64,000 nucleotides of DNA from Nonlabens sp. Its GTDB lineage: Bacteria; Bacteroidota; Bacteroidia; Flavobacteriales; Flavobacteriaceae. The stretch is from NCBI GenBank assembly GCA_020630715.1, contig JAHDIQ010000001.1:430513-494512 (forward strand), written 5' to 3'. The notes beneath the pieces are model-generated. The model had not been told where the DNA came from, made no database searches, and was given only the letters and a program-made list of their open reading frames with translations. Below, piece by piece: positions 1-57,992 of this stretch. Made by a program: the position numbers and the translations under genes. The number at the start of each line of letters is the position of its first letter. The first letter of the stretch is position 1.

Positions 1-1778
1 TGATAGAACGTAAGAAAACAGAATTTGTAGGTACGATAGAAGTACATGAAAAGTTTGCTTTTGTTAACGTAAGTGATCCTAGAATTCATACAGATTTCTT
101 TATCCCTAAACGCGGAATTAAAGATGCAAAAGATGGTCAAATCGTTCTAGTAGAATTTGTAGAATGGAATGATAAACAAGACTCACCTAATGGTGTTGTT
201 AAGTCCATTTTAGGTGATCCAGGAGAACACGATACAGAGATTCACGCTATACTTGCACAGTATGGTTTACCTTATGAATTTCCACAAGCTGTAGAAAATT
301 ATGCAGATAACATCGATAAAACTATTTCTGAAAAAGAAATTAGTAAGCGTCGTGATATGCGTGATACTTTAACTTATACCATTGATCCAGCAGATGCAAA
401 GGATTTTGACGATGCTTTATCCTTTAAAGAATTAGAAAACGGTCATTATGAAATAGGCGTCCACATTGCAGATGTAAGCCATTACGTTCCAGAAAATTCC
501 ATTCTTGAAGAAGAAGCTTATGAACGCGCCACATCTGTTTATCTAGTAGATCGCGTGGTTCCTATGTTGCCAGAAGTGCTATCTAATGGTGTTTGTTCGT
601 TAAATCCTCATGAGGATAAATTGACATTTTCTGCGGTATTTGAAATGGATGATACTGGTAAGATTTATAAAGAATGGTTTGGTCGCACGATTATTCACAG
701 TGACCAGCGATTTGCTTATGAAGAGGCTCAACATATTATTGAGACTGGTAAAGGTGATATTCCTGATGATATTTCGCTTTCGCGAAAGCGAACTCAAATC
801 AATCCAGAAATTGTAAAAGCAACTTTAAAATTAGATGAAATTGCAAAAGTAATGCGCGGAAAACGCATGCAGTCTGGAGCATTATCATTTGATAAAACAG
901 AAGTGAAATTCAATCTGAATGATAAGGATGAACCAGTAGGAGTTTATTTTAAAACTTCTCGAGATGCTAATAAATTGATTGAAGAATTTATGTTATTGGC
1001 AAACCGTAAAGTAGCCGCTTTCATAGGAAAACGACAGCCAGAACCTACTTTTATTTATCGTATTCATGATGAACCTAATGATGAAAAGTTAGGCGCGCTA
1101 GCAAAAATTGTAACGCGTTTTGGTCACCGTTTAGATTTACGTGATCGCAAGCATGTGACACAATCTTTAAATAAGTTATTAGAAGATGTAAAAGGCCAGA
1201 AAGAACAAAACATGGTAGATACGCTAGCTATTAGAACTATGTCTAAAGCGGTTTATTCTACAGATAATATAGGTCATTATGGTCTAGCATTTGACTATTA
1301 TTCGCATTTTACTAGTCCTATACGTCGTTATCCAGATGTAATGGTGCATCGCTTATTACAGCATTATCTAGATGGTGGAAAAAGTGCAAATGCCGAGTAT
1401 TTTGAAGAGAAATGTCAGCACAGTTCAAACATGGAAGTCCTAGCCACAAAAGCTGAGCGTGATTCTATTAAATACATGCAAGTGAAATACATGAAAGATC
1501 ATCAGGATGAGGAATTCCTAGGTGTGATTTCTGGAGTAACAGATTGGGGAATTTATGTAGAAATCATAGAAAATAAATGTGAAGGAATGATACGTCTAGG
1601 TGATCTAGATGATGACAGTTATGAGTACGTAGAAGAAGAATTTGCTGCTATAGGTCGCAAGACTAAAAATGCGTACACCTTAGGAGATGAAGTATATGTA
1701 AAAGTAAAAAATGCAGATCTAGTAAAAAAACAACTGGATTTTTGGATGGTAGGAAGTAAAGAAAACGTTGAAAACTGA
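1..1778 (+). CDS. rnr: Ribonuclease R (VacB/RNB family), 5' end outside window
   Basis: This is a 3'-to-5' exoribonuclease that degrades structured RNA in the cytoplasm. The open frame is already open at base 3 and runs without a stop, so the gene starts upstream of the window and the apparent Met at base 357 is internal. A cold-shock-like segment is followed by the RNB catalytic motif DAKDFDDALS (bases about 393-422), whose aspartates bind the catalytic metals, and by a C-terminal S1 domain (about 1519-1760). One exact copy of the window's 14-bp palindrome lies inside the gene and is read as LSRK, in the stretch SLSRKR. The family assignment is firm; only the N-terminus is unseen. Confidence 0.96.
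   Translation, partial: IERKKTEFVGTIEVHEKFAFVNVSDPRIHTDFFIPKRGIKDAKDGQIVLVEFVEWNDKQDSPNGVVKSILGDPGEHDTEIHAILAQYGLPYEFPQAVENYADNIDKTISEKEISKRRDMRDTLTYTIDPADAKDFDDALSFKELENGHYEIGVHIADVSHYVPENSILEEEAYERATSVYLVDRVVPMLPEVLSNGVCSLNPHEDKLTFSAVFEMDDTGKIYKEWFGRTIIHSDQRFAYEEAQHIIETGKGDIPDDISLSRKRTQINPEIVKATLKLDEIAKVMRGKRMQSGALSFDKTEVKFNLNDKDEPVGVYFKTSRDANKLIEEFMLLANRKVAAFIGKRQPEPTFIYRIHDEPNDEKLGALAKIVTRFGHRLDLRDRKHVTQSLNKLLEDVKGQKEQNMVDTLAIRTMSKAVYSTDNIGHYGLAFDYYSHFTSPIRRYPDVMVHRLLQHYLDGGKSANAEYFEEKCQHSSNMEVLATKAERDSIKYMQVKYMKDHQDEEFLGVISGVTDWGIYVEIIENKCEGMIRLGDLDDDSYEYVEEEFAAIGRKTKNAYTLGDEVYVKVKNADLVKKQLDFWMVGSKENVEN
776..789. repeat. Iterated palindrome GCTTTCGCGAAAGC, copy 1 (in rnr)
   Basis: Exact copy of the 14-bp core, with perfect symmetry extending to 20 bp. 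It is read in frame as LSRK within the RNase R catalytic domain. Confidence 0.95.
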
Positions 1779-1803
1779 TCAAATAATTGTAAGTTCGAGC
1801 ACA

Positions 1804-1827
1804 GCTTGCCTACCGGCAAAGGCAGGC
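1804..1827. repeat. Short GC-rich inverted repeat (CLPA-type)
   Basis: A GC-rich hairpin (GCTTGCC ... GGCAGGC, 10-base loop) in otherwise AT-rich DNA just after rnr. When read through it gives the peptide CLPAKAG. From memory, similar CLPAG-type palindromes recur between genes in Bacteroidota genomes. It appears once here, so membership of a repeat family is inference. Confidence 0.5.
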
Positions 1828-1863
1828 CGAGAATTAAATCTTAAGAGATTATTAGAAATTGTT

Positions 1864-2031
1864 TTGAAAACTAAAACCTGCCATACCTGTAATCATAACT
1901 TTGATGTCATGTTTAGAATTCAAATTAACAATGATAAACAATGGTTTTTTTGTTGTAAGAATTGCACTCAGAACCATCAGTCATTACCTCATTATAAATA
2001 TGGTGGTACATGGAAAGGAAAACGTCATTAA
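1864..2031 (+). CDS. Small zinc-ribbon protein, hypothetical
   Basis: A protein of about 55 residues with two cysteine pairs, CHTC near the N-terminus and CCKNC about 25 residues later, a spacing typical of a zinc ribbon. It ends in the motif HYKYGGTWKGKRH, which I recognise from small uncharacterised flavobacterial proteins. The frame is open further upstream (from a TTG at 1768), but that part runs through the GC-rich inverted repeat and overlaps the end of rnr, so the TTG at 1864 is preferred as start. The function is unknown. The start is uncertain because no ATG is available. Confidence 0.6.
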   Translation: MKTKTCHTCNHNFDVMFRIQINNDKQWFFCCKNCTQNHQSLPHYKYGGTWKGKRH

Positions 2032-2086
2032 TTTTATTTTCTATAATTCAACGTAAAAATTAACCGTTTAACGATTTATTAAACTT

Positions 2087-2284: not shown

Positions 2285-2950
2285 ATGAAATTTCTAAATA
2301 CCTTAATCATTTTACTTGTAAGCATTGGGTCAATCGCTCAAATAGAAGAACCAGTCGGAAATTTTGATACGATAAAAGTATATGATTTAATTAAGGTGAA
2401 TCTGGTGAAATCAGATGAGAATAAAATCATCATTACAGGTGAAGATGCATCTGATGTAGAGTTTGTACAAAAAAATGGCATTTTAAAAATTCGCATGCGA
2501 TTTGAAAAGAGTTTTGATGGTGATCAGACTTTTGTTCATGTTCACTATAAAGAATTACTTACTATAGATGGGAATGAAGGATCTGTAATCACTTCAAATG
2601 AGTTGATAGAACAAGAGCAAATAGAATTACGCACGCAAGAAGGTGCGACCATACGTGCTGGTGTTAAAGTAGACGTATTAAAAATACGTGCGGTTACTGG
2701 TGGTATTATGGAAATTTCCGGAACTACACATCATCAACAAATAACCGTAAATACTGGAGGAATTGTAGAAAACGAAAATTTACGATCTAATCATACTACA
2801 GTTACCGTAAAAGCTGGTGGTGAAGTAGAAGTACAAGCTACAGAAAGTGTAGATGTGGATATCAAAGCTGGTGGCGATGTAATCGTTTACGGTAATCCTA
2901 AAAAGGTGCGTAAGAAAACCTTTGCTGGTGGTTCTATACAAATCAATTAA
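2285..2950 (+). CDS. Secreted DUF2807 (head GIN domain) protein
   Basis: A 221-residue protein with an N-terminal signal peptide (about residues 1-19, hydrophobic core LIILLVSIGSIA, cleavage near AQ). The rest is a chain of short beta-rich repeats with recurring GG/GE turns (TGGIME, TGGIVE, AGGEVE, AGGDVIV), as in the putative auto-transporter adhesin head GIN domain (DUF2807) found widely in Bacteroidota. It is probably periplasmic or surface located. No enzymatic motif is visible. It stands alone between a terminator and the LysE-type gene, with an intergenic copy of the 14-bp palindrome directly downstream. Confidence 0.8.
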   Translation: MKFLNTLIILLVSIGSIAQIEEPVGNFDTIKVYDLIKVNLVKSDENKIIITGEDASDVEFVQKNGILKIRMRFEKSFDGDQTFVHVHYKELLTIDGNEGSVITSNELIEQEQIELRTQEGATIRAGVKVDVLKIRAVTGGIMEISGTTHHQQITVNTGGIVENENLRSNHTTVTVKAGGEVEVQATESVDVDIKAGGDVIVYGNPKKVRKKTFAGGSIQIN

Positions 2951-2964: not shown

Positions 2965-2992
2965 CTATTTCGCTTTCGCGAAAGCGAAATAG
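2965..2992. repeat. Iterated palindrome, copy 2, longest form (intergenic)
   Basis: Exact 14-bp core at 2972-2985 with perfect symmetry extending outward to 28 bp. This is the longest perfect copy in the window and sits 15 bases after a stop codon. No T-tract follows, so it is not an ordinary intrinsic terminator, although its RNA would form a strong hairpin. Confidence 0.95.
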
Positions 2993-3130: not shown

Positions 3131-3808
3131 ATGCTAGAAGACGTTTACAGCGCAATTCCGATAGGATTTATCATGGCCTTTATGATAGGTCCTGTATTCT
3201 TTGCATTATTAGAAACCAGTGCCATTAAGGGATTTAGAGCAGCACTTGCTTTAGATATAGGTGTTTTTATTGCAGATATTCTATTTCTGCTTGCGGCCTA
3301 TTTCATGACTTCATCGATTTTAGAAAAATTAAAAGACGATCCTGGATTGTACATTTTTGGTGGTTCTATTCTAGCAGTTTATGGTATTGTGTCCTTTGTA
3401 AAAACTAGAAAAACCTATTTAAAAGAAGTGGATCCTAAGGTATTTGCGGTGCGCAAGAATAACTACTTTGCTTTATTGATTAAAGGATTTTTTCTCAACT
3501 TTATTAATATAGGAGTCTTAGGGTTTTGGTTAGGATTGATCGTGTTATTCAGTCCACAACTAGATAATGATGCTAGTAGAATCACTACTTTTTTTGCATC
3601 AGTATTAGGAACTTATTTTGTGGTTGATTTATGTAAAATTATACTTGCAAAAAACCTTAATCGTTACCTTACACCACACCGTATATTTCTTTTAAAGCGT
3701 TTAATAGCCATAATCATGATAATCTGTGGTGCGGTATTGATTTTTAAAGGCGCATTTCCAGAATCTACACATATTATTGAGGATCAACTGCCTAGTATTA
3801 CGGAATAA
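3131..3808 (+). CDS. LysE/RhtB-family amino-acid exporter
   Basis: A 225-residue inner-membrane protein with about six hydrophobic segments (near 5-30, 38-60, 75-90, 117-145, 155-175 and 190-207). The N-terminal segment IPIGFIMAFMIGPVFFALLETS fits the LysE translocator signature, including the conserved GP in helix 1. Members export amino acids or small metabolites, but the substrate cannot be told from sequence. The gene is monocistronic and followed by the oppositely oriented tRNA-Cys. Confidence 0.85.
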   Translation: MLEDVYSAIPIGFIMAFMIGPVFFALLETSAIKGFRAALALDIGVFIADILFLLAAYFMTSSILEKLKDDPGLYIFGGSILAVYGIVSFVKTRKTYLKEVDPKVFAVRKNNYFALLIKGFFLNFINIGVLGFWLGLIVLFSPQLDNDASRITTFFASVLGTYFVVDLCKIILAKNLNRYLTPHRIFLLKRLIAIIMIICGAVLIFKGAFPESTHIIEDQLPSITE

Positions 3809-4387: not shown

Positions 4388-4410
4388 TATCATATTAAAT
4401 GAAAAGAGCG

Positions 4411-6090
4411 ATGAGCGATTCTACTAAGGCAACTAATTTTATTGAGGATATCATAGAAGATGATTTAAAAAATGGTCTTTCTACTGATGTATTACGTTTT
4501 AGATTTCCGCCAGAACCTAATGGTTATTTACACATAGGTCATGCAAGTGCGATATGTCTCAACTTTGGGCTAGGAGAAAAGTATAATAGACCAGTAAACT
4601 TGCGTTTTGATGATACTAATCCGGCAAAAGAAGAAGCTAAATACGTTGCTGCGATTCAAAAAGATGTAGAATGGTTAGGTTATCAATGGGATCACCTATG
4701 CTATGCATCAGATTATTTCCAGCAGTTATATGATTGGGCAGTGCAAATGATTAAAGATGGTAAGGCTTATGTAGATTCTCAGTCCAGTGAAGAAATTGCT
4801 TCTCAAAAAGGAACACCTACTGAACCTGGTGTAGACAGTCCATATAGAAACCGCAGTGTTGAAGAAAATCTAGCACTATTTGAAGGAATGAAAAATGGTG
4901 AGTACGGAGAAAGTGAACACATCCTACGTGCTAAAATCGATATGAAGTCTAATAATATGCTCATGCGTGATCCTATCATGTATAGAGTCGTAAATAAAGC
5001 ACATCATAGAACTGGTACAGACTGGAAAATTTATCCTATGTATGACTGGACTCATGGAGAAAGCGATTACATAGAACAAATCACACATTCATTTTGTACG
5101 CTAGAATTCCTACCACATAGGGAACTTTATAACTGGTTCTTAGACCAAGTAGTAGAAAGCGATAAAATACGCCCTAAGCAACGTGAATTTGCTCGCAGGA
5201 ACGTATCTCATACCGTAACGAGTAAACGTAAATTACAAAAACTAGTACAGGCCGGAATCGTTACTGGATGGGATGATCCACGCATGACTACCATATCAGG
5301 TTTAAGACGTCGTGGATACACACCGGATAGTATAAAGAATTTTGCAGCATCTATAGGAATTGCAAGACGTGAGAATATTGTAGATATGAATCACCTTGAG
5401 TTTCATTTACGCGATGATCTGAATAAAAAAGCAGATCGTGTAATGTGCGTACTAGATCCTGTGAAACTGGTGATCACAAATTATCCAGATGATCAAGTAG
5501 AATTGCTTCAAGCAGAAAATAGCCAGGAAGATGAAACACGTGGTTATAGAGAAGTACCTTTTTCAAAAGAACTTTACATAGAGCGCGAAGATTATAGAGA
5601 AGAAGCAAATAAGAAGTTTTTCCGTTTAAAGAATGGAAAAGAGGTTCGTTTAAAGAATGGATATATCATAAAAGGTGAAGGTTGTTTAAAAGATGAAGCT
5701 GGTAATATTACAGAGATTCACGCCACCTATGATCCAGATTCAAAAAGTGGTAGTGGTACTGAGGCGAGTATGCGTAGGGTAAAAGGAACCTTACACTGGG
5801 TAAGTGCAGCACATGCAGTTCCAGTAGAAGTGCGATTGTATGATCGTTTATTTACAGTGCCTTCACCAGATACAGATAAGGAAAAGGATTTTATGGAATT
5901 TGTAAACCCTAATTCTCTAGAAGTCATCACCGCAATGGCAGAACCTGCTATGAAAAATTTAAAAATAGGTGAGACCGTGCAATTCCAGCGCATGGGATAT
6001 TTCTGCGTAGATCCAGATAGTACAGATGATAAATTGGTATTTAACCGTACCGTTACGTTACGCGATACATGGGCAAAGCTAGATAGTTAG
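4411..6090 (+). CDS. glnS: Glutaminyl-tRNA synthetase
   Basis: Class I synthetase that charges tRNA-Gln with glutamine. Signature motifs are visible: FRFPPEPNGYLHIGH (HIGH motif), LRFDDTNP, the DW(T)HGESDYIEQITHS region of the catalytic core, and VTSKRK as the KMSKS equivalent, followed by the beta-barrel anticodon domain (GYFCVDPDS near the end). Length is about 559 residues, normal for bacterial GlnS. An ATG at 4399 is also in frame; 4411 is chosen because MSD...TNFIEDII aligns with known N-termini. A strong promoter precedes it and a terminator follows. Confidence 0.96.
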   Translation: MSDSTKATNFIEDIIEDDLKNGLSTDVLRFRFPPEPNGYLHIGHASAICLNFGLGEKYNRPVNLRFDDTNPAKEEAKYVAAIQKDVEWLGYQWDHLCYASDYFQQLYDWAVQMIKDGKAYVDSQSSEEIASQKGTPTEPGVDSPYRNRSVEENLALFEGMKNGEYGESEHILRAKIDMKSNNMLMRDPIMYRVVNKAHHRTGTDWKIYPMYDWTHGESDYIEQITHSFCTLEFLPHRELYNWFLDQVVESDKIRPKQREFARRNVSHTVTSKRKLQKLVQAGIVTGWDDPRMTTISGLRRRGYTPDSIKNFAASIGIARRENIVDMNHLEFHLRDDLNKKADRVMCVLDPVKLVITNYPDDQVELLQAENSQEDETRGYREVPFSKELYIEREDYREEANKKFFRLKNGKEVRLKNGYIIKGEGCLKDEAGNITEIHATYDPDSKSGSGTEASMRRVKGTLHWVSAAHAVPVEVRLYDRLFTVPSPDTDKEKDFMEFVNPNSLEVITAMAEPAMKNLKIGETVQFQRMGYFCVDPDSTDDKLVFNRTVTLRDTWAKLDS

Positions 6091-6170: not shown

Positions 6171-6192
6171 TTTCGCTTTCGCGAAAGCGAAA
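6171..6192. repeat. Iterated palindrome, copy 3 (intergenic)
   Basis: Exact core at 6175-6188 within a 22-bp perfect palindrome, 18 bases beyond the glnS terminator T-run. It is one of two exact intergenic copies. Confidence 0.95.
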
Positions 6193-6367: not shown

Positions 6368-6778
6368 ATGGCAAAGACAGGAAATACACTCGTAGCACTA
6401 GTAGCAGGAGCAGCAATAGGAGTAGCAGCAGGAATGTTGTACGCTCCAGACAGCGGAGAAAAAACTCGTAAGAAATTAAAGAAAAAAGCAAAGAAAGCAC
6501 AAGCAGATTTAGATGCTCAAGCGCGTAAAGCTTATGATCAACTAGCAACAGAGGCTTCTAAATTAACAGGAACTGTAAATACAAAAGCTTCTGAATTAAA
6601 AGGAAGTGTTAGTGATAGATTAGAAACAGCTCTATCTAGCGCAAGTTATAAGGCAGATGATGCTATTGTAGCATTAGAGAATAAATTAGAGCAATTGAGA
6701 GCACAAAATGCAAAGTTGCAAAAACCATCCAGCGTGAATGGCGCAATTCAAAAAGCAGATGCTAAGGTAAACGCATAA
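6368..6778 (+). CDS. YtxH domain-containing protein
   Basis: A 136-residue protein. The N-terminal hydrophobic, glycine/alanine-rich helix (about residues 7-25) followed by LYAPDSGEKTRKKLKKKAKK is the YtxH signature (GxLFAPxxG[KE]xxR), originally from general-stress proteins. The remainder is charged, alanine-rich and helical, suggesting a membrane-anchored coiled coil. It is first in a three-gene operon with a holin-like membrane protein and a DUF6327-type protein, an arrangement linked with stress response in Bacteroidota. The start is the only ATG that keeps the membrane helix. Confidence 0.85.
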   Translation: MAKTGNTLVALVAGAAIGVAAGMLYAPDSGEKTRKKLKKKAKKAQADLDAQARKAYDQLATEASKLTGTVNTKASELKGSVSDRLETALSSASYKADDAIVALENKLEQLRAQNAKLQKPSSVNGAIQKADAKVNA

Positions 6779-8473: not shown

Positions 8474-9112
8474 ATGATGAAAAGAATCCTGTTCCTCTTA
8501 TTGATATTTAGTTTTTCTATAAATCTATACGCACAACGTCGTAATACGTATAATAATACCATAGGAGTAGGAGCAGATCTAACATTATTCAATTTACAGA
8601 CTGATGATGTTGCGGTAAACAGTAGAATAGGATGGACTGCAGGACTAGAAACACGAGGAAAATTTAGACCTTATGCAGATTTGATTTTTGGCGTGCAATT
8701 GTTCAACAATAAATTTAGTGTTGAAGAAGCTATTTCTGGCGACGACATCAATATGAACGTCATAGGTGCAGAGGTGAAGTTTCTCTACGCAGCAAAACCA
8801 TGGAGATCAGATAATTTTTCCTTTGAAATAGGTCCAACACTATCTTTTAACGGTGAGTATAAAGTAGAAGATTCTAGGTATGAAGACAGTATTATTGCTG
8901 GTGATAACGCTGTGTTAGTATCTTCATTTCAAAAAACGACACCTATCAATTTTAGTGGTATTGTAGGTTTTAGCGCAGGAACTAGAAAGATTAGATTTAG
9001 CGCACATTATCATTATGCATTTTTAGATGCGCTGAACGGTAAAAATGCGTTAAGTGAAGAGCTCAACGGTAAGATGAGTTTTATGAGCTTTGGTGTAAGA
9101 ATATATCTTTAA
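8474..9112 (+). CDS. Outer-membrane beta-barrel protein
   Basis: A 212-residue protein with a signal peptide (about 1-20, ending LYAQ), then alternating hydrophobic strands (for example IGVGADLTLF, FSFEIGPTLSF, KIRFSAHYHYAF) and a final strand MSFGVRIYL ending in an aromatic/aliphatic pattern suited to barrel assembly. It looks like a small OmpA-barrel-like/PorT-like outer-membrane protein of Bacteroidota. The specific role is unknown. It overlaps the converging gltX by four bases. Confidence 0.7.
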   Translation: MMKRILFLLLIFSFSINLYAQRRNTYNNTIGVGADLTLFNLQTDDVAVNSRIGWTAGLETRGKFRPYADLIFGVQLFNNKFSVEEAISGDDINMNVIGAEVKFLYAAKPWRSDNFSFEIGPTLSFNGEYKVEDSRYEDSIIAGDNAVLVSSFQKTTPINFSGIVGFSAGTRKIRFSAHYHYAFLDALNGKNALSEELNGKMSFMSFGVRIYL

Positions 9113-10623
9113 CCTAGATGTTTTATTGCGTTATGAATGCGTTGAACACTTTCTTTCTTTCCTATCACAGAGGCGATTTCAAAAACATCTGGACCCATTA
9201 AACTTCCTACTAATGAAAGCCTTAAAGGCATCATTACTTTACCAAAACCCATTTCTTGACTCGTAATCCATCCTTTTACAGCAGTGCTTAATCCTGTAGC
9301 ACTATCGTCATCACAGTTTTCAATTACGGTAATCACATCATTCATAATATCTGATGTTCCTTCTTTCCATGCTTTTTTGCTCGCTTTTTCATCATAAGAT
9401 GTAGGCGCGGTAAAGAAAAATCTTGCTAACTCAAATAAATCTTCAGTAAATACGGCGCGTTCTTTTACCAGTCCAGCCACTAGATTTACGTAATCTTGTG
9501 ATCCGTAGTCTATATGTTGTTCTTGTAACGCTTTCGCGAAAGCGGCACCTATAACAGCATCATCTTGTTGCACGTACCATTGCTGTTGAAACCATTTTGT
9601 TTTCTCTAGATCAAACTTTGCACCAGCACTATTTACTTTTTCCAGACTAAAGGTTGCTACAAGATCTTCTAAGGAGAATAATTCCTGCTCTGTTCCAGGA
9701 TTCCAACCTAAAAAGGCTAGCATATTAATAACAGCTTCTGGTAAATATCCATCTTCACGATATCCAGCATAGGTAGTGTCTTCTTTCTTATCAAACCATT
9801 CTAATGGAAACACTGGAAAACCAAATTTTGCTCCATCACGCTTGCTTAATTTTCCTTTTCCGGTAGGTTTAAGAATCAATGGTAAATGGGCAAATTGAGG
9901 TGCTTCCCACCCAAAACTTTCATATAATAAAACATGTAACGCCATACTAGGTAACCATTCTTCACCACGTATCACATGGGTGATGCGCATATCATGATCA
10001 TCTACCACATTTGCCAGGTGATAGGTAGGCATTCCGTCGCTTTTAAATAATACTTTATCGTCTAGTAAACTAGTATCAATAGTAACGCCTTTACGCACGA
10101 TGTCGTGCATGTGTAATGTTTTAAGTTCTGGCTTAAAACGGATTACATAATCATCACCACGATTAATACGTTCCTGCACTTCATCGTTTGATAAGGTAAA
10201 TGAGTTTTCAAACTCGTGTCTTACGGTATGGTTGTAAATAAAGGTTTGTTTTTGAGCTTCGGCAGTTTTGCGGGCTTCTGTTAATGCGTCTGCAGTGTCA
10301 AAAGCATAGTAAGCAGCACCTTTTGAAATTAGCTCTAGTGCATAATCTTTATACATCGCTTTACGTTCACTCTGGCGATACGGTCCACAGTCACCTTCTT
10401 TATTAATTCCTTCATCATAAGGAATACCGCACCAGTTTAGCGCATCGATGATGTATTGTTCTGCTCCTTCTACATATCTGTTTTGATCTGTATCTTCTAT
10501 ACGTAGTATGAAGTCACCAGCATGCTTTTTTGCAAATAGGTAATTAAACAATGCGGTTCTTACTCCACCTATATGAAGTGGTCCTGTAGGACTAGGCGCA
10601 AAACGTACACGTACTTTACTCAT
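9109..10623 (-). CDS. gltX: Glutamyl-tRNA synthetase
   Basis: Class I synthetase charging tRNA-Glu. Visible motifs are SPTGPLHIGG (residues 10-19, HIGH class), FILRIEDTDQNR, and GKLSKRDG (about residue 258, KMSKS class), followed by the helical anticodon-binding domain. Length is 504 residues, normal. The 14-bp palindrome is embedded in the anticodon domain as AFAKA at residue 361. A TACCTTTG promoter box lies 23 bases upstream, so the gene is probably transcribed independently of the preceding alkB-like gene. Confidence 0.97.
   Translation of the reverse strand: MSKVRVRFAPSPTGPLHIGGVRTALFNYLFAKKHAGDFILRIEDTDQNRYVEGAEQYIIDALNWCGIPYDEGINKEGDCGPYRQSERKAMYKDYALELISKGAAYYAFDTADALTEARKTAEAQKQTFIYNHTVRHEFENSFTLSNDEVQERINRGDDYVIRFKPELKTLHMHDIVRKGVTIDTSLLDDKVLFKSDGMPTYHLANVVDDHDMRITHVIRGEEWLPSMALHVLLYESFGWEAPQFAHLPLILKPTGKGKLSKRDGAKFGFPVFPLEWFDKKEDTTYAGYREDGYLPEAVINMLAFLGWNPGTEQELFSLEDLVATFSLEKVNSAGAKFDLEKTKWFQQQWYVQQDDAVIGAAFAKALQEQHIDYGSQDYVNLVAGLVKERAVFTEDLFELARFFFTAPTSYDEKASKKAWKEGTSDIMNDVITVIENCDDDSATGLSTAVKGWITSQEMGFGKVMMPLRLSLVGSLMGPDVFEIASVIGKKESVQRIHNAIKHLG
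9530..9543. repeat. Iterated palindrome, copy 4 (in gltX)
   Basis: Exact core, read as AFAKA (residues 361-365 of GltX). Confidence 0.95.
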
Positions 10624-32561: not shown

Positions 32562-33094
32562 AAATAATTGACACACCGCTACAGGATTGTAAAATCATAG
32601 AGCCATCTGTTTTTAAAGATGCTCGTGGTAAATTTATAGTGGCTTTTGATAGTTTCGCTTTCGCGAAAGCGTTACCACAGCAACCACCATTCATCACCAT
32701 CAATGAAAGCACCTCTACTTACGGCGTGATCCGTGGATTACACCTTCAAAAAGCCGAAGCGTCACAAGCAAAATTAGTACGTTGTATCAGTGGTCGTATT
32801 CTAGATGTTGCTGTGGATTTCAGACCAGAATCACCTACCTATTTGCAACATATTGCCGTAGAATTGAGTAGTGATAACAACAAACAAATATTAGTTCCTA
32901 GAGATTTTTTACACGGCTTTTCTGTCTTATCAGAAACAGCAATAGTAAACTACCAAGTGGATAATACATATCAACCAGAAGAGGAATTAACAATCAGGTA
33001 TGACGATCCGTCGCTACTTATAGATTGGAAAATTCCTAAAGATCATATTGTAGTTTCTGACAAGGATCGTAACGCTGGTTTTATAAATGGGTAA
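32558..33094 (+). CDS. rfbC: dTDP-4-dehydrorhamnose 3,5-epimerase
   Basis: Third enzyme of the pathway, a cupin-fold epimerase. Visible motifs are [22 protein letters not shown] (active-site His) and [13 protein letters not shown]; length is 178 residues. The palindrome is read as AFAKA at residues 34-38, aligned with the usual FxxAL helix before the substrate strand. It overlaps rfbA by four bases and abuts rfbD. Confidence 0.95.
32657..32670. repeat. Iterated palindrome, copy 9 (in rfbC)
   Basis: Exact core, read as AFAKA at residues 34-38 of RfbC. Confidence 0.95.
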
Positions 33095-34634: not shown

Positions 34635-34648
34635 GCATTCGCGAAAGC
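34635..34648. repeat. Iterated palindrome, near copy (intergenic)
   Basis: GCATTCGCGAAAGC, one mismatch to the core, between the terminator and gmd. Confidence 0.75.
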
Positions 34649-37890: not shown

Positions 37891-37908
37891 AAGTTTAATC
37901 TTAATTTA

Positions 37909-39174: not shown

Positions 39175-39181
39175 TAAACTA

Positions 39182-40219: not shown

Positions 40220-40222
40220 TCT

Positions 40223-44046: not shown

Positions 44047-45133
44047 GAAACGCATACTCATAGTTGGTCCATTACCACTACCTACCACAGGTGTTTCTCT
44101 AGCAAATCAAGTGGTTTATGAAGAGCTTCAAAAATCACCCTTTTTTGGTGTTAAAACAGTAAATACAAGTTATTCCAGTTTTGATGAACAATTAGGCGCA
44201 GTAAGCCTCAAAAAACTTTGGTTTTACCTTAAACTTCAAGTTTATTTCTTCAAAGTATTTAGTCACGATATTATCTATATCACTCCAGGACAAACGTTTT
44301 TTGGGGTTGTTAAATATGCACTATATATTTTAGGGGCTACGCTTTCGCGAAAGCAAATTATACAACACATTCACGGTAATTTTCTAGGAAAGCAATATCA
44401 TTTACTCTCAGGTTGTAAAAAGAAGATATTCCACTTTTTAATGTCTAAAACAGACAAAGGTATAGTACTTTCTGACTCTTTGAGACCTAATTTTGAGCCT
44501 TTTATTGAACCTAACAACATCTATTCCTTAAAGAACTTTGTAATAGACGAACTTTTTTTTGAAGATGAGGTCATAAAACAAAAAAATTATACTGATTTAA
44601 GAATAGTATTCCTAAGCAACTTAATGACTGAAAAAGGAATTTTTGATTTGTTAGAAGCTCTACTAAAACTAGAACAACAAAAGATTCCTTATAAAGCTAA
44701 AATTGCTGGAAATATTGCACCAGAAAATCAAGCAATAGCCCAAGAGTACTTTAGTAAATTAAAATGGACAAAATACATAGGTGTGGTAGATAAACCTCAA
44801 AAAACAAAACTTTTAAAGTGGTCTAATATTTTTGTTTTACCTACTTATTATACTATGGAAGGACAACCTATTTCTATACTAGAGGCAATGGCAAGCGGTA
44901 ATGTAGTTCTTACCACGCCACATGCAGGTATACCAGATGTGTTTGAACATGGCGTTAACGGTTTCTTTGTAAAACCACAAGACCCTAAAACAATTGTTAA
45001 ACAATTTTATAAACTCGTAGATCATAAAAGCCTGTTTACAACTATAGTTCAAAATAATATTCATCAGGCCAGAGCAACCTATCGTGTCGCTCATTTTGTG
45101 GATAATCTTGAGCAGATAATTTTTAAAACGTAA
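44039..45133 (+). CDS. Glycosyltransferase family 4
   Basis: A 364-residue GT-B enzyme starting RILIVGPLPLPTTGVSLANQ. The C-terminal donor site has LPTYYTMEGQPISILEAMASGNVVLTT (E-x7-E type). The palindrome is read as LSRK at residues 102-105. Likely acts on the repeat unit; donor unknown. It overlaps the preceding ligase-like gene by 8 bases. Confidence 0.88.
   Translation: MSKKRILIVGPLPLPTTGVSLANQVVYEELQKSPFFGVKTVNTSYSSFDEQLGAVSLKKLWFYLKLQVYFFKVFSHDIIYITPGQTFFGVVKYALYILGATLSRKQIIQHIHGNFLGKQYHLLSGCKKKIFHFLMSKTDKGIVLSDSLRPNFEPFIEPNNIYSLKNFVIDELFFEDEVIKQKNYTDLRIVFLSNLMTEKGIFDLLEALLKLEQQKIPYKAKIAGNIAPENQAIAQEYFSKLKWTKYIGVVDKPQKTKLLKWSNIFVLPTYYTMEGQPISILEAMASGNVVLTTPHAGIPDVFEHGVNGFFVKPQDPKTIVKQFYKLVDHKSLFTTIVQNNIHQARATYRVAHFVDNLEQIIFKT
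44341..44354. repeat. Iterated palindrome, copy 11 (in GT4 gene)
   Basis: Exact core, read in the second frame as LSRK. Confidence 0.95.
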
Positions 45134-46798: not shown

Positions 46799-48016
46799 TT
46801 GAAAGGGAAACACATCACGTTCATAGGACTAAACTATGCTCCAGAAGATACTGCTATAGGATTGTATTCTACTCAAATGGTAGAAGCATTGCTGGATGCA
46901 GGAGCAATCGTGAATGTTGTTACAGCCTTTCCCTATTATCCACAATGGAAAATAGCACAAGATTATCAGGATCAACCTAATTATCTTCAAGAAGAACTAA
47001 ATGGCGCACAACTTTATAGGTACAAACAATACGTTCCAGAAACGCCTACCTTTTTAAAACGTATCCTACATATTTTAAGCTTTACAAAAGGAAGTTTTTT
47101 CAACTTAAGAAAGATTAAAAAAACAGACCTAGTAATCTCCATCATTCCATTTACATCTAGTGCATGGTTAGCTGGATACCACGCTAGAACCCGTCAGGCT
47201 AAAAGCTGGATACATATTCAGGATTTTGAATTTGACGCAGCCTTACAGTCTGGACTTTCCAGTGGTGGAAAAAAAGCGATTTTTAAGTTTCTTTTTAGTT
47301 TAGAAAAGGGCATTCTCCATAAAGCAGATGTGATAAGCACCATCAGTCACAACATGATTGCAAAACTGGAGACTAAGACCACAACGCCTAATTATTACTT
47401 ACCTAACTGGATAGACGAGAGCCAAGTGAATCCAGCAACTGCTGTGCAACATGCATATTTAAAGTCAGATAAATTTAAGTTGCTTTACAGCGGTAATGTA
47501 GGAGATAAGCAAGACTGGGAATTTTTTTCCGCTTTTGCGAAAGCGTTACCACCACAACATTATGACATCATCATCGTAGGTGCTGGGGCAAAATACCAGC
47601 AATTAAAGGATGCTACCAACCAAGAAAACATCCACTTTTACGATCCAGTACCTTTTGAAGAACTCTCTGATTTACTGTGTAGTGCTGATGCTCATTTTCT
47701 ATTCCAAAAAACAGAAGTGCTAGATACCGTAATGCCGTCAAAATTACTAGGAATGATGGCAAGTCAGAAGCCTTCACTTGTTTTAGGAAATCAAAATTCA
47801 GAGGTGAAACAGGTAATGGAACTAGCAAACGCTGGACATTATCTTATCACACCAGAGGTTGAACAAGCGGTTCATATACTTGAAAAATGGCGCACAGATC
47901 CAGCATTTTGTTCTCACATAGGGAAACAATCACGAGATTATGTCATCGATAAATTTGCGCGTAAACCTATCCTAGAGAATTGGATCGAGCAGTTACAACT
48001 ATTGATAGAAGAATAA
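46799..48016 (+). CDS. WcaI-like glycosyltransferase family 4
   Basis: A 405-residue GT-B enzyme. The start HITFIGLNYAPEDTAIGLYSTQMVEAL and the later VLDTVMPSKLLGMMASQKPSL are typical of the WcaI-like colanic-acid glycosyltransferase group. A one-mismatch palindrome copy encodes AFAKA in the donor half. The start is TTG. It begins the last block of the polysaccharide locus, with a UXS-like enzyme and the initiating transferase downstream. Confidence 0.85.
   Translation: MKGKHITFIGLNYAPEDTAIGLYSTQMVEALLDAGAIVNVVTAFPYYPQWKIAQDYQDQPNYLQEELNGAQLYRYKQYVPETPTFLKRILHILSFTKGSFFNLRKIKKTDLVISIIPFTSSAWLAGYHARTRQAKSWIHIQDFEFDAALQSGLSSGGKKAIFKFLFSLEKGILHKADVISTISHNMIAKLETKTTTPNYYLPNWIDESQVNPATAVQHAYLKSDKFKLLYSGNVGDKQDWEFFSAFAKALPPQHYDIIIVGAGAKYQQLKDATNQENIHFYDPVPFEELSDLLCSADAHFLFQKTEVLDTVMPSKLLGMMASQKPSLVLGNQNSEVKQVMELANAGHYLITPEVEQAVHILEKWRTDPAFCSHIGKQSRDYVIDKFARKPILENWIEQLQLLIEE
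47531..47544. repeat. Iterated palindrome, near copy (in GT4 gene)
   Basis: GCTTTTGCGAAAGC, one mismatch, read as AFAKA at residues 245-249. Confidence 0.8.
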
Positions 48017-50417: not shown

Positions 50418-51191
50418 ATGAACCTGGTTTCTGTCATCATGCCTACTTACAATAGCCGTGCTACCTTACAGCAGGCGCTAGACAGCATTGTTAAGCAAAC
50501 CCATCGACCTATAGAAATCATTGTTATTGATGACGCTAGTGATGATGATAGTTACGCTTTCGCGAAAGCATATTCACAACAACATTCCACCTCACAATTA
50601 AGCTTTAAAATTCTAAGCAACTCACAGAATTCTGGCGCAGGAATCAGCCGAAACAAAGGAGTTACCATAGCAACTGGAGATTACATCGCATTCCTAGATG
50701 CAGATGATTTATGGAAAACACATAAACTACAAGCCCAATTAGAAGCCATGAAAGCGGTAAATGCTAGCGTTTGTTATGGAGCTTATGAGTTATTTAAAGA
50801 CGATCCAGACCAGCCAGTTGCCATCCACAAAGTGTTTCAAAAACTAACCTATAAGAAACTACACAAAGCAAATTACCTAGGTAATCTTACAGGTATTTAT
50901 GATGTTCATGCACTAGGTAAAATCGCAATTCCTAGCTTGCGTAAACGACAAGACTGGGCGATGTGGCTGGATGCACTTAAAATATCAGGTCACGCCATAG
51001 GAATTCAAGAACCGCTGGCCAGTTATCGTTTAGGCAACGGTATTTCATCAAACAAATGGAAGTTGATTAAATACAATCATGCGGTGTATAGGCAACACTT
51101 AGGTTATAGCGCTGTGAAAAGCTTATGGATGATGATAATATTTTTCTATGAGCAATTTGTGGTGAAAAGGAGTATGGTTGAAAAGATTTAA
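50418..51191 (+). CDS. Glycosyltransferase family 2
   Basis: A 257-residue GT-A enzyme with VSVIMPTYNSRATLQQALDSI, IIVIDDASDDDS, NKGVTIATGDYIAFLDADDLW (DxD type metal site) and a basic C-terminal region. The palindrome is read as AFAKA at residues 47-51, between the DDAS strand and the acceptor part. It directly follows the initiating transferase (adjacent codons) and may add the second sugar. Confidence 0.92.
   Translation: MNLVSVIMPTYNSRATLQQALDSIVKQTHRPIEIIVIDDASDDDSYAFAKAYSQQHSTSQLSFKILSNSQNSGAGISRNKGVTIATGDYIAFLDADDLWKTHKLQAQLEAMKAVNASVCYGAYELFKDDPDQPVAIHKVFQKLTYKKLHKANYLGNLTGIYDVHALGKIAIPSLRKRQDWAMWLDALKISGHAIGIQEPLASYRLGNGISSNKWKLIKYNHAVYRQHLGYSAVKSLWMMIIFFYEQFVVKRSMVEKI
50556..50569. 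repeat. Iterated palindrome, copy 12 (in GT2 gene)
   Basis: Exact core, read as AFAKA at residues 47-51. Confidence 0.95.
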
Positions 51192-52453: not shown

Positions 52454-53752
52454 TTAGCTTAAACAACTAACAAACTGCTTTAACTTTCCACGATTACTGC
52501 GGTCTAGGGTTTCCATTCTAGTGAAAATCACTACCAGTCCAGGTTCTAGATATTCATCCATGGCCTTTTGCACTTTAGATTTTTGAGAATCATCCATTTC
52601 TTGCGAACTCACATATTGTATTTCAAACAACGCAGGTTCTTTTTGAATAACTATAAACTCTAGAATATTGAGATCTTCACTTATAATTGATTTTGTAACA
52701 TAGTAAAACGTTAATCCTGGTACTACTTTACCGCTAGGTAGCCTTGCAATATCACTAGTACGACCTTGTAGATTACTTAATATTCTTGTACCGTTTTCTA
52801 GTGTTTTTAAACTTCCTAGATCACCTATTTCATAACGTATCATAGGATGCGCTAGATTATATAAATCTGTTACGAGTATGCGACCTATGGTTCCATCAGG
52901 AACTGATATGTTATGATCATCTACTACTTCTACAAATAGGTTTTCTTGATTAATCACAAATTCTCCTTGTGGATTTTCCATAGCGATGAGTCCTACTTCA
53001 CTTGCGCCATATTCATTTGCTACTGGAATTCCTAACCATTTTTCCAGTAAAGCACGATCATCTGGAAAAAGCATTTCACTAGTTACGATACATAGTTTTA
53101 AGCTAGGGCAAATTTGCTTTAGGACTTGATTTGTTTTTCTGCAATATGTTGCTAATAGTACAATGCTACTGGTGTACCCATTGATGTAATGGTATTCGCT
53201 TTCGCGAAAGCGAGATACATAACGCTCCAGCACTTCATCATTTAAATTGAAAATAGGAAAGCGTTTACGATTACTCAAAAAATCTTTTAACAGCTCTGCA
53301 TATTTCCCTTTACCACTTAATGGGATACCATAAAACCGCGCTTGTAAAGAGTCGTTAAGACTTATCCCATGCTGATGATATGCATTGTGAAAAGACGCCC
53401 AAGCCAGTGCATGTGCATATTTATCTTTTGCATAAGTAAATGGATGACCACTGGAACCGCTTGTTTTTCCTTTAAAAATGGATTTTATAGCAAAACCATC
53501 ACTTAGTCGTGACGGCAGCGGTTGCTGTAAATCACGTTTAGTAAGCACTGGTATTTCTTCCCAAATCGCACTAGGCTCACTCACTATGGATTTATAAAAC
53601 TGATTATGGTTAAGATGATGGTTTAAAATAGCAGTCTTTTGCTTTTCTAATGAGGAAGCATCACTATTTAGCAAATTTGCGTATTGCTTTTTTGCGTCCT
53701 CTATAGGAAAACCTTTGAATTTTAATATGTTGTCAAAAAGTTGTAGTGGCAT
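52454..53752 (-). CDS. PaaK/CapK-like adenylate-forming enzyme
   Basis: A protein of about 432 residues related to phenylacetate-CoA ligase, often found beside capsule and exopolysaccharide loci as CapK-like proteins. Visible motifs are KGKTSGSSGHPFTY (AMP-binding loop), NEYGASEVGLIAME and RYEIGDLG. The frame extends nine codons further from a TTG; the ATG at 53752 is chosen. The substrate is unknown. The palindrome is read as FRES at about residue 182. Confidence 0.8.
   Translation of the reverse strand: MPLQLFDNILKFKGFPIEDAKKQYANLLNSDASSLEKQKTAILNHHLNHNQFYKSIVSEPSAIWEEIPVLTKRDLQQPLPSRLSDGFAIKSIFKGKTSGSSGHPFTYAKDKYAHALAWASFHNAYHQHGISLNDSLQARFYGIPLSGKGKYAELLKDFLSNRKRFPIFNLNDEVLERYVSRFRESEYHYINGYTSSIVLLATYCRKTNQVLKQICPSLKLCIVTSEMLFPDDRALLEKWLGIPVANEYGASEVGLIAMENPQGEFVINQENLFVEVVDDHNISVPDGTIGRILVTDLYNLAHPMIRYEIGDLGSLKTLENGTRILSNLQGRTSDIARLPSGKVVPGLTFYYVTKSIISEDLNILEFIVIQKEPALFEIQYVSSQEMDDSQKSKVQKAMDEYLEPGLVVIFTRMETLDRSNRGKLKQFVSCLS
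53198..53211. repeat. Iterated palindrome, copy 13 (in PaaK/CapK-like gene)
   Basis: Exact core, read on the minus strand in the third frame as FRES (within RFRESEYHY). Confidence 0.95.
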
Positions 53753-53788
53753 TTTAAATATGCAAGCAATATTGAGCAAGGTAAAACT

Positions 53789-53815: not shown

Positions 53816-55087
53816 ATGAACGTTTTAATTCTAGGATCTGGTGGACGCGAGCATGCATTTGCTCATTCCATTGTAAAAAGCTCTTTATTATCAAAGCTAT
53901 ATGTGGCACCAGGTAATGCTGGTACAGCTCTAATGGCAACTAATGTTGATTTAAGCGTGACAGATTTTGACGCGATTAAGGCTTTTGTTTTAGAACATGA
54001 GATCACTATGGTAGTCGTAGGTCCAGAAGCACCATTAGTAGCTGGAATCTATGATTATTTTCAGGCAGATGATAGCTTGAAACATGTTAATGTGATAGGT
54101 CCATCTAAAAACGCTGCGATGTTAGAAGGTTCTAAGGAATTTGCCAAAGAATTTATGCAACGCAATAAGGTTCCTACTGCGGCTTATGAAAGCTTCACGG
54201 CTGCATCGGTAGATCAGGGAAAAGCCTTTATCGATACCTTAAAAGCACCATTTGTTCTTAAAGCAGATGGTCTAGCTGGTGGAAAAGGCGTGCTAATCAT
54301 TAACGATGCAACTGAGGCAAAGAACGCATTAGAAGAAATGTTAGTCGGTGGAAAATTTGGTGAGGCTTCTAATAAAGTAGTGATAGAAGAATTTCTAGAT
54401 GGTATTGAAATGAGTGTTTTTGTGATGACAGATGGCGATTCTTATAAAATCATGCCTACTGCCAAGGATTATAAACGAATAGGTGAAGGTGATACAGGTC
54501 TCAACACTGGTGGAATGGGTGCCGTTTCTCCGGTACCATTTGCAGATGATACACTGATGCAAAAAATTGAACAACAAGTAGTGATCCCAACGATAAATGG
54601 CTTACAATCAGAACAACTAGATTATAAAGGCTTTGTTTTTATAGGCCTTATGATTGTGAATAACGAACCTTTTGTCATTGAGTATAACGTGCGCATGGGC
54701 GATCCAGAGACTGAGGTAGTACTACCGCGTATTTCTAGCGATTTATTGTCTCATTTAAACGCTTTTGCAAAAGCAGCATTACATAAAGAGCAATTTCAAA
54801 TCGACCCTAGAAGTGCGACTACCGTAATGTGTGTTGCTGGTGGATATCCAGAAGCTTATGATAAAGGAATGAGAATAAACGGATTAGATCAAGTGGAAAA
54901 TAGTATCGTTTTTCACGCGGGAACTAAGAAACATAATGGTGAGGTAGTAACTAATGGTGGACGCGTTATGGCGATTACTAGTTACGGTGATGATTTCAAA
55001 CATGCACTAAAAAAATCCTATGAAAACATCAGTAAACTGAGTTTTGATAGGATGTATTATAGAAGTGATATAGGTTTTGACCTATAG
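53816..55087 (+). CDS. purD: Phosphoribosylamine-glycine ligase
   Basis: Second step of purine synthesis, joining phosphoribosylamine and glycine with ATP. The 423-residue ATP-grasp enzyme has NVLILGSGGREHAFAHSI, VVVGPEAPLVAGI, FVLKADGLAGGKGVLI, and FVIEYNVRMGDPETEVVLPR. Length is normal. A symmetric variant of the palindrome encodes AFAKA (residues 316-320). Confidence 0.97.
   Translation: MNVLILGSGGREHAFAHSIVKSSLLSKLYVAPGNAGTALMATNVDLSVTDFDAIKAFVLEHEITMVVVGPEAPLVAGIYDYFQADDSLKHVNVIGPSKNAAMLEGSKEFAKEFMQRNKVPTAAYESFTAASVDQGKAFIDTLKAPFVLKADGLAGGKGVLIINDATEAKNALEEMLVGGKFGEASNKVVIEEFLDGIEMSVFVMTDGDSYKIMPTAKDYKRIGEGDTGLNTGGMGAVSPVPFADDTLMQKIEQQVVIPTINGLQSEQLDYKGFVFIGLMIVNNEPFVIEYNVRMGDPETEVVLPRISSDLLSHLNAFAKAALHKEQFQIDPRSATTVMCVAGGYPEAYDKGMRINGLDQVENSIVFHAGTKKHNGEVVTNGGRVMAITSYGDDFKHALKKSYENISKLSFDRMYYRSDIGFDL
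54761..54774. repeat. Iterated palindrome, symmetric variant (in purD)
   Basis: GCTTTTGCAAAAGC, identical to the variant in rfbB, still perfectly palindromic, read as AFAKA. Confidence 0.75.
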
Positions 55088-56322: not shown

Positions 56323-56330
56323 TATATTTG
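56323..56330 (+). promoter_or_regulatory. -7 box (TATATTTG)
   Basis: Perfect TAnnTTTG match 20 bases before the DUF4254 gene. Confidence 0.6.
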
Positions 56331-56350
56331 TAACGTTAAAATATGCACCT

Positions 56351-56959
56351 ATGTTTTCAGAAAAAGCAAACGCCATTTTTCAAGACGTTATTGAAACGTA
56401 TAAGAAATTAAATACTGTAGATCAGCCATTTACTAATAAATATGATAGAAATACGCACTTAATTGAGCATCTACTATATCGTAAGAGCTGGATTGATACC
56501 GTACAATGGGCTTATGAAGACATTATTAGAGATCCGCAGATTGATCCGGTTGCAGCACTTACCTTGAAACGTAAAATTGATGCTTCTAATCAGGATCGTA
56601 CAGATACCGTAGAATATGTAGATGGTTATTTTCTTGATAAATATAAGGATGTAACCATTAAAGATGATGCTACGATAAATACAGAAAGTCCAGCATGGGC
56701 AGTAGATCGTTTATCGATTCTAGCATTAAAAATCTATCACATGAATGTAGAGGCAACGCGCACAGATGCTAGCCCAGAACATATCAGCGCTTGTAAAAAG
56801 AAGCTAGATGTATTGTTAGAACAACGTGTAGATTTATCTACTGCGTTAGACCAATTATTAGATGATATCGCACATGGTCGTAAGTATATGAAGGTGTACA
56901 AACAAATGAAAATGTACAATGACGACGAGCTTAATCCAGTATTGAGAGCACGTAAATAA
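56351..56959 (+). CDS. DUF4254 domain protein
   Basis: A 202-residue soluble, helical protein with NTHLIEHLLYRKSWIDTVQWAYED and IDASNQDRTDTVEYVD, matching DUF4254. Members are commonly next to heptosyltransferase-like genes, as here (4-base gap to the GT9 gene), which suggests a link with lipopolysaccharide core synthesis. The exact function is unknown. Confidence 0.8.
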   Translation: MFSEKANAIFQDVIETYKKLNTVDQPFTNKYDRNTHLIEHLLYRKSWIDTVQWAYEDIIRDPQIDPVAALTLKRKIDASNQDRTDTVEYVDGYFLDKYKDVTIKDDATINTESPAWAVDRLSILALKIYHMNVEATRTDASPEHISACKKKLDVLLEQRVDLSTALDQLLDDIAHGRKYMKVYKQMKMYNDDELNPVLRARK

Positions 56960-56963
56960 TACC

Positions 56964-57992
56964 ATGAATTTACCACAACGCATACTCGTCATAAGGCTTA
57001 GCGCTATGGGTGACGTAGCGATGTGTGTTCCAGTTTTTCTAGCATTACATAAAAAATATCTTAGTGTTGAGGTGATTATGCTTTCGCGAAAGCGGTTCAA
57101 ATCCATCCTACAGCCACTACCTAACGTCCACTTTATAGAAGCTCAGGTAGATGATGTGCACAAAGGCGTATTAGGATTGTGGAAATTATCTAAAGCGCTC
57201 AAATCTCAACACATTGATGCCGTAGCAGATTTACATGACGTATTGCGCAGTAGGATCTTGCGTACGTTTTTAAGTAAATCACTCACTGCGGTAATTAATA
57301 AAGGCAGATCAGATAAAAAAAAGTTAGTGCGTGACGCCACTTTTTTCAAACCCTTAAAACACACTACTCAACGCTATGCAGATGTATTCCGTGAACTGGG
57401 ATTTGAAATTGACTTAGCTAATGATTTTCTTCAAAAAAGAACTGTTTCTAATCAAATTCATGAAAAAATAGGTAAAAACACCTCAAAATGGATCGGTTTT
57501 GCACCATTTGCTGCACATCGTACCAAGGCTTTGGGAATTGAAAAAGCAACAGAGATCGCACAAGAAATCATGAGGTTAGAAAATGTACAGGTATTGCTTT
57601 TTGGAGGTGGAAAAAAAGAAATCCAACTACTAGATCAAATCGCCCAAAAAACAGGCGCGATCAATCTAGCAGGTCAATTTAATTTTGATGAAGAATTAGA
57701 TTTGATATCAAATTTAGATGCGATGATTGCTATGGATAGTGGTAATGGACATCTAGCAGCCATGTATGGAATACCTGTAGTCACACTATGGGGAAATACA
57801 CATCCTTATGCCGGTTTTGCACCGTATGCTCAACCTATAGAAAACCAAATCACCGTAGATAGAACCGCTTATCCTTTAGTGCCTACATCGATTTTTGGAA
57901 AAACTATCTTAGATGGTTATGAGGACATCACTGATTATATTGAAACAAGAACGGTTATTAATAGATTAAAGGGTTTGATATCAGTGGTTTAA
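56964..57992 (+). CDS. Glycosyltransferase family 9 (heptosyltransferase-like)
   Basis: A 342-residue GT-B enzyme of the ADP-heptose:LPS heptosyltransferase family. Visible motifs are RILVIRLSAMGDVAMCVPVFLAL at the N-terminus and AMDSGNGHLAAMYGIPVVTLWGNTHPY in the donor domain. It probably adds a heptose or related sugar to the lipopolysaccharide core. The palindrome is read as LSRK at residues 40-43. Confidence 0.9.
   Translation: MNLPQRILVIRLSAMGDVAMCVPVFLALHKKYLSVEVIMLSRKRFKSILQPLPNVHFIEAQVDDVHKGVLGLWKLSKALKSQHIDAVADLHDVLRSRILRTFLSKSLTAVINKGRSDKKKLVRDATFFKPLKHTTQRYADVFRELGFEIDLANDFLQKRTVSNQIHEKIGKNTSKWIGFAPFAAHRTKALGIEKATEIAQEIMRLENVQVLLFGGGKKEIQLLDQIAQKTGAINLAGQFNFDEELDLISNLDAMIAMDSGNGHLAAMYGIPVVTLWGNTHPYAGFAPYAQPIENQITVDRTAYPLVPTSIFGKTILDGYEDITDYIETRTVINRLKGLISVV
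57080..57093. repeat. Iterated palindrome, copy 14 (in GT9 gene)
   Basis: Exact core, read in the second frame as LSRK within MLSRKRFK. Confidence 0.95.

Follow-up and report, generated by a model that had tools for sequence, protein, structure and literature searches.

Why should a single 14-bp palindrome, GCTTTCGCGAAAGC, occur 14 times in one 64,000-nucleotide stretch of a Nonlabens genome? A preliminary description of this stretch, here called the window, placed 12 of the copies in unrelated genes and two between genes, regarded their number as far beyond chance and likened them to highly iterated palindromes (HIPs); a nucleoid or segregation protein site, a DNA-uptake or recombination signal and a methylation target were named as possible roles. 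We find that the palindrome is the core of a large symmetric DNA sign, in which the 14-mer is usually followed by GNAAT and then by about 20–25 G-poor bases on each strand. Hundreds of copies, spread fairly evenly, are kept even where they alter proteins, probably for some machine to recognize the cell's own DNA by.

All 14 copies proved exact, and their gene placement was as described; the open reading frames (ORFs) are predicted, and no strand is assigned to the palindrome. Two copies are intergenic: 2972..2985 lies between ORFs 2285..2950 and 3131..3808, with GAAAT next to the core on both strands, and 6175..6188 lies between ORFs 4399..6090 and 6368..6778. Ten are located inside ORFs of the forward strand, namely 776..789 (ORF 357..1778), 12885..12898 (11850..15452), 20717..20730 (20339..21520), 22727..22740 (21527..23110), 28939..28952 (27849..29573), 32657..32670 (32558..33094), 36608..36621 (35972..37021), 44341..44354 (44039..45133), 50556..50569 (50418..51191), and 57080..57093 (56964..57992). 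The copies at 9530..9543 (ORF 9109..10623) and 53198..53211 (ORF 52454..53779) are inside ORFs of the reverse strand. Dinucleotide shuffles of the window yielded a mean of 0.00 copies and a largest count of 0 in 100 shuffles. Allowing up to two mismatches adds six sites and brings the total to 20, against 0.12 expected.

The accumulation is not a peculiarity of the window. The 2.98-Mb assembly (17 contigs) from which it derives holds 609 exact copies, against none for the reversed motif, which corresponds to 204 per Mb or one copy per 4.9 kb. For details, a sample of 464 kb (16% of the genome, 400 predicted coding sequences) was used. It contains 63 coding copies, while 200 synonymous-codon shuffles gave a mean of 0.31 and a maximum of 2, which rules out codon or amino-acid preference as the cause. 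Likewise, 28 of the 38 AFAKA peptides are written with the motif, although TTC and GCG are uncommon, at 20% of Phe and 15% of Ala codons, respectively. In total, 63 of the 92 sampled copies are coding, with genes making up 91% of the DNA, and 29 are intergenic in the remaining 9%; these counts are approximate, as the ORF calls are crude (29 or 31 intergenic among 92). For the uptake sequences of H. influenzae, a share in genes of 65% is quoted in the consulted part of PMC1939737. A role as transcription terminator was rejected: only 3 of 31 intergenic copies lie between convergent genes, and no T-run follows the core in 29 flanks.

The element is confined to few genera. All 23 Nonlabens genomes are motif-rich (288–857 copies each), as are all 18 genomes (369–905 copies) of a second genus, that of G206 and G655, which we infer to be Dokdonia. 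A third genus, represented by its single genome G190, has 408 copies. In a survey of 249 Flavobacteriaceae genomes from 235 genera, five genomes exceeded 400 copies (three Nonlabens, G190, and G206), 48 had 1–17 copies and 196 had none; thus, 232 of the 235 genera have 0–17. At class level, 24 of 395 genomes showed a match, and only the source genome had more than four copies. In a tree of MnmG (29 rows; 1 of 30 was dropped), the motif-rich rows require three changes, and the starred branches force at least two. G190 and Dokdonia share one supported group with the motif-poor G144. Taken with the few sites that the genera share (see below), this tree, of one gene, suggests that copies may have accumulated independently in two or more lineages.

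G144, the sister of Dokdonia in this tree, was inspected for remnants. Its 420 kb contain 1, 1, 4, and 21 sites with 0, 1, 2, and 3 mismatches, and permuted-palindrome controls (n = 60) gave means of 0, 0.05, 1.0, and 10 and largest values of 0 (exact), 1, 11, and 39. The single exact copy exceeds the controls, but its arms do not fit. As the sites with one to three mismatches are within the control range and no site has fitting arms, a decayed system in G144 was rejected.

The arms were characterized at the 92 exact copies of the 464-kb sample. In 156 of 184 arms, the core is directly followed by G, which makes C-core-G the prevailing form; any base comes next and then usually A, A, T. At positions +6 to +20, G falls to 5–11% while A and C rise, and the effect fades past +30. 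The arms are thus strand-asymmetric with little change in G+C: 5' of the core, each strand is C-poor and richer in G/T. In intergenic Nonlabens copies, preferred positions are evident (A at +3 in 81%, at +4 in 91%, at +10 in 68%, and at +13 in 68%), and therefore the arms are partly position-specific and do not reflect composition alone. The two sides of coding copies and the intergenic copies all show similar arms, which hence seem to be read as DNA. Matching arms are also carried by G252 and by Dokdonia, where the second arm base is T in 64%. A flank score placed 92/92 exact copies above the 99th percentile of the background, a value inflated because the score was trained on those sites; among one-mismatch sites, which were outside the training, 13/15 still exceeded this threshold.

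The core has a sharp optimum, with 92 exact against 15 one-mismatch sites in the 464 kb and 101 against 8 in Dokdonia. In a set of 29 one-mismatch sites, which includes some orthologues counted twice, 19 change the T or C of TCGCGA and 6 the two outermost positions; the commonest single changes fall on this TC (T to C in 8/29, C to T in 7/29). The 464 kb alone give the same picture, with 10/15 and 3/15, respectively. In the window, one-mismatch sites with fitting flanks are found at 25675..25688, 34635..34648, and 47531..47544, and one with flanks under the threshold at 61199..61212. The two-mismatch sites are 31051..31064 (flanks fit) and 54761..54774 (flanks under the threshold). Both exemplify the symmetric variant GCTTTTGCAAAAGC, which accounts for 5 of the 12 two-mismatch sites in the 464 kb and, as the arms fit in four of these, may represent a second form that is tolerated. 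In G190 (14 stretches, 280 kb, 46 exact copies), the core is less sharply defined, with 21 two-mismatch sites against 0.9 for permuted palindromes, and weaker arms were seen.

The copies are spaced more regularly than random places. For 89 intervals of the source genome, the coefficient of variation (CV) is 0.48, compared with 0.98 for random places and 0.69 in the lowest random trial (n = 5000), and only 1/89 intervals (1.1%) is shorter than 1500 bases, where 23 were expected. G252 (71 intervals) behaves similarly, with a CV of 0.53 against 0.87 and 5 such intervals against 23, and includes two pairs less than 300 bases apart. For the first 100 listed places each, the CV was 0.74 in Dokdonia G655 and 0.68 in G190, against 0.99 for random places; the G655 value lies in the tail yet above the lowest trial (0.71), while its intervals below 1 kb (4 against 23) are fewer than in every trial. 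Single 60-kb regions gave CVs of 0.54–0.81, and therefore the regularity is not equally strong everywhere.

Near sites obey the same spacing. We considered the 19 sites in the 464 kb with one or two mismatches and fitting flanks: only 1/19 has an exact site less than 1.5 kb away, whereas random places gave 10.9 and never fewer than 4 in 5000 trials. Moreover, 16/19 occupy gaps of above-average length, where 11.2 were expected; 100 of 5000 trials reached this number. In the window, the sites at 25675 and 47531 each stand about midway in a 6.2-kb gap. Exact and near copies keep apart, as if one per few kb sufficed. On a larger scale, 20 stretches of 20 kb, taken at 200-kb steps along one 3.9-Mb chromosome, held 0–7 copies (variance/mean 0.57). 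Copies were present in 19/20 stretches, and no origin or terminus bias was seen in this sample of about 10% of one chromosome.

Across the six Nonlabens species compared, the element has been preserved at fixed positions with little or no change. Of the aligned sites, 35/51 are exact and 44/51 are within one mismatch (33 of 84 cells were unaligned and dropped), compared with 658 identical among 23,262 random aligned 14-mers (2.8%). The copies at 12885 and 22727 are each exact in 5/6 relatives and have one mismatch in 1/6; those at 9530 and 28939 are exact in 4/6 with one mismatch in 2/6. Near sites of the window can be exact elsewhere, namely 25675 in four relatives, 47531 in five, 54761 in two, and 34635 in one. 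Five relatives carry an exact copy near 33746, at a place where the window differs at 6–8 positions.

The copy at 20717 encodes AFAKA in ORF 20339..21520, which we take to be phosphoglycerate kinase (PGK); its best match, at 87% identity, is to N. ulvanivorans and places the window in Nonlabens. This copy is exact in three of the six relatives, and the other three have 1, 5, and 7 mismatches. In a wider PGK alignment (7/80 loci without a usable frame were dropped), three Nonlabens rows are exact, 70 other rows have 4–9 mismatches, and 73/73 are gap-free. The residues aligned to the Nonlabens AFAKA are AFAEK in 20/73 rows and AFAEQ in 14/73. Hence, this copy arose via several substitutions and not by insertion, and two residues were changed. 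Similarly, the one diverged orthologue seen for site 28939 (L024, L025) differs by substitutions, with a gap-free core. Between Nonlabens and Dokdonia, in a small sample, 1/6 comparable sites of the source genome and 1/3 Dokdonia sites are shared.

In motif-poor genomes, nine stretches from seven genomes (L006–L014, picked for clustered copies) hold 23 copies, 19 of which have arms above the 99th percentile of the source genome. The five proteins searched there were an outer-membrane efflux protein, an RND transporter, a Fur-like regulator, and two P-type ATPases. G087 and G101, which belong to two genera, share one efflux gene at 99.9% identity. We infer that metal-efflux-type genes bearing the element once resided in a motif-rich genome. 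Two closely related Nonlabens phages and one biosynthetic stretch, which may stand for newly acquired DNA, hold no copies. The phages P12024S and P12024L (L262, L263) have neither the motif nor TCGCGA. The 20-kb stretch G252:C1:190001-210000 (L243), the one empty stretch among the 20 sampled, holds giant nonribosomal peptide synthetase (NRPS) and polyketide synthase (PKS) ORFs, and an extended part of one of them is duplicated internally. In P12024S and P12024L, CGCG as such is scarce (9 and 10 occurrences against about 43 and 44 expected), which could reflect a restriction system or a codon habit.

Which protein might read the element? ComEC, the sole competence gene searched, is present in 22/22 genomes, and uptake is therefore possible. 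ParB_N gave a single match in 9/10 motif-rich genomes; G254 has a second match of 616 aa, and long second matches are also present in the motif-poor G101, G215, G220, and G021. Five Nonlabens loci (L022–L025, L027) each carry, twice, a parS-like palindrome separate from the element, TTTCACGTGAAA, while several other Flavobacteriaceae PGK loci (L037, L051, L053, L055, and others) have TTCCACGTGGAA two or three times; Nonlabens may have undergone a shift in ParB specificity. Among 74 further Flavobacteriaceae PGK loci, no other iterated palindrome than the parS-like one, with 2–3 copies per locus, stood out. The single ParB_N match and the separate parS-like palindrome rule against a parS or Noc site, and the lack of regional bias in the one-chromosome sample against a MatP or SlmA type.

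The idea of a TCGCGA methylation target is disfavoured. The 58 occurrences of TCGCGA outside the motif compare with 60.7 expected, so no enrichment is apparent. PF01555 methyltransferases occur in 7/11 motif-rich genomes (not found in G000, G242, G259, and G206) and PF00145 in 8/10 (not found in G242 and G190); hence, no N6/N4 or C5 methyltransferase common to the motif-rich genomes was found in these two families, the only ones searched.

Two further features of the window concern its sequence composition. Positions 36622–44340 contain no copy of the element and have the lowest GC of the window (0.30–0.33 in 4-kb steps); the ORFs there resemble surface-polysaccharide genes. At 14600–15000, the translation of ORF 11850..15452 shows a low-complexity Gly/Glu/Lys/Ser repeat tract (EGKEGKEG..., GESGE...).

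The explanation that we put first, tentatively and at somewhat less than an even chance, is a self-recognition sign, most likely a DNA-uptake signal, that is maintained through a one-site-per-fragment process. A dimeric or two-fold-symmetric DNA-recognizing machine would favour fragments bearing one copy. In natural transformation, copies would spread and be repaired by molecular drive because copy-bearing fragments would be taken up and recombined more often, until there is one per fragment-sized stretch. As a guess, the strand asymmetry of the arms could stem from the core being a place where strands separate or RecA is loaded. Even spacing, the sharp optimum, residue-changing substitutions, the avoidance between near and exact sites, the presence in 19/20 sampled stretches of one chromosome, and the absence from the two phages are counted for uptake, as are the 63/92 copies in genes and the mostly different sites in Nonlabens and Dokdonia. 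An even distribution is the expected outcome of uptake-driven spread according to the section seen of an H. influenzae paper (PMC7811141). In a toy one-site-per-fragment model, 12 settings gave CVs of 0.28–0.79, with 0.43–0.46 for fragments of 3–5 kb and middle strength. Almost an even chance, in our judgement, attaches to the proposal that this is the first DNA self-recognition (uptake/recombination) signal described in Bacteroidota, and that this palindromic element, about 60 bp long and with strand-asymmetric arms, became established independently in Nonlabens and the Dokdonia lineage, where an undescribed two-fold-symmetric DNA-reading machine serves it.

Several points weigh against uptake. 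The toy model leaves 3–6% of the intervals below 1.5 kb, compared with the 1.1% seen, and any one-site-per-segment rule would produce the observed regularity as the model does. ComEC does not discriminate because it is equally present in 11 motif-poor genomes, and no receptor or other reader protein was identified, a whole-genome comparison of gene content not having been made. With its arms, the element is longer than known uptake sequences, which are not palindromes according to the pages consulted of PMC1939737. The same excerpts cite the view that even spacing indicates replication, repair or compaction and state that compaction sites would be more evenly spaced than uptake sequences are; therefore, the strong evenness found here may favour a chromosomal role. 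Furthermore, selection for a nucleoid or repair site would likewise explain the conservation and why phages lack the element.

Such a site is the next explanation, which we consider unlikely: a chromosome-organizing protein would use anchors about 4–5 kb apart to fold or coat the nucleoid, and selection would keep them near the consensus. Noc, SlmA, and MatP sites, palindromes of similar length bound by dimers, are far fewer and show regional (origin/terminus) bias, and no such bias was seen in our 10% sample of one chromosome. The regular spacing across the genome, near sites included, the conservation at orthologous places and the symmetric extended footprint with its position-specific preferences all agree with an anchor, and the argument published in PMC1939737, as far as its text was available, that very even spacing suggests compaction adds to this. 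But for some 600 binding sites, there are few one-mismatch sites, and no second chromosomal ParB tracks the motif (one ParB_N match in 9/10 motif-rich genomes). Among the roles first proposed, we favour the uptake signal over the nucleoid protein.

A Chi-like sign is improbable. Here, a nuclease-helicase arriving from either side would stop at the palindrome and load RecA on the 3' tail, and the strand asymmetry with little change in G+C, equal in genes and between them, would be explained, since the 3' tail holds the C-poor, G/T-richer sequence 5' of the core. The density of one copy per 4.9 kb is similar to that of known Chi sites, but those are short and asymmetric. In addition, the arms have position-specific preferences, and in G252 it is T more than G that enriches the 5' side, with TGG outside its 12 commonest triplets. 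TG-rich DNA gives the stablest RecA filaments, as stated in the portion seen of PMC3763553, which counts for a Chi-like sign.

Still less probable is a HIP1-like by-product of methylation and mismatch repair at TCGCGA. It would account for a palindrome with a CpG-rich centre and for T to C and C to T as the commonest changes at its TC, and a limited repair range would also space the sites (PMC4390886, in the part consulted), but the two methyltransferase families are patchy among motif-rich genomes, TCGCGA is unenriched outside the motif, and the deviations are central. Finally, a mobile or inserted repeat of the repetitive extragenic palindrome (REP) or miniature inverted-repeat transposable element (MITE) type, spread by transposition, is very improbable despite the many copies and their intergenic enrichment, as beyond the core only few preferred positions are shared, and it is rejected for the coding copies examined by the gap-free alignments at PGK and 28939.

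The element is long and sharply defined, and 3 of the 235 sampled genera carry it while their motif-poor neighbours can serve as natural controls, so that the search for the reader protein becomes a tractable comparison of gene content, and drive by uptake can be told from selection for structure or repair at the bench. As a stamp on DNA, it suggests past hosts for the metal-efflux genes that carry it, with arms, in other genera. In the literature searched, which mostly leaves out subscription papers, no occurrence of the 14-mer or its 12-mer was found; the 10-mer TTTCGCGAAA appears there only on other subjects, as judged by titles. The partly accessible literature on palindromes of Nonlabens or Dokdonia, motifs of Flavobacteriia and uptake sequences of Bacteroidota held nothing on point.

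Iterated signs of such strength are known from few groups. Compared with the sites of Noc, SlmA, MatP, and ParB, the element differs in its roughly 600 copies and its lack of bias in the sample; besides, a separate parS-like palindrome is present in the Nonlabens loci. With Chi, it shares the G/T-richer 5' side, but it is palindromic, much longer and sharply defined. The likeness to HIPs that was first suggested stands in that both are short palindromes iterated genome-wide, mostly in genes, and of unsettled function, the role of HIP1 itself still being debated. It fails in density, unit length, arms and the pattern of deviations. In the sections seen of PMC4390886, HIPs reach 1000–2000 copies per Mb, alternative HIPs have at least 75% GC, and deviations from HIP1 concentrate at outer positions. 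Our element is five to ten times sparser, with 204 copies per Mb, has G or C at 8 of 14 bases, a longer exact unit, arms and central deviations, and lacks a common methyltransferase in the two families searched. The uptake sequences of Pasteurellaceae and Neisseriaceae (USS and DUS) resemble it in their hundreds of copies or more, many in genes, in their even spacing and in their restriction to few genera. Newly acquired DNA is also said to contain few of them (PMC7811141, in part), and the two phages and the NRPS/PKS stretch may point the same way here. USS and DUS occur about once per kb (same source, same portion), the element once per 4.9 kb; it is palindromic, has a 14-bp core and long symmetric arms and belongs to Bacteroidota.

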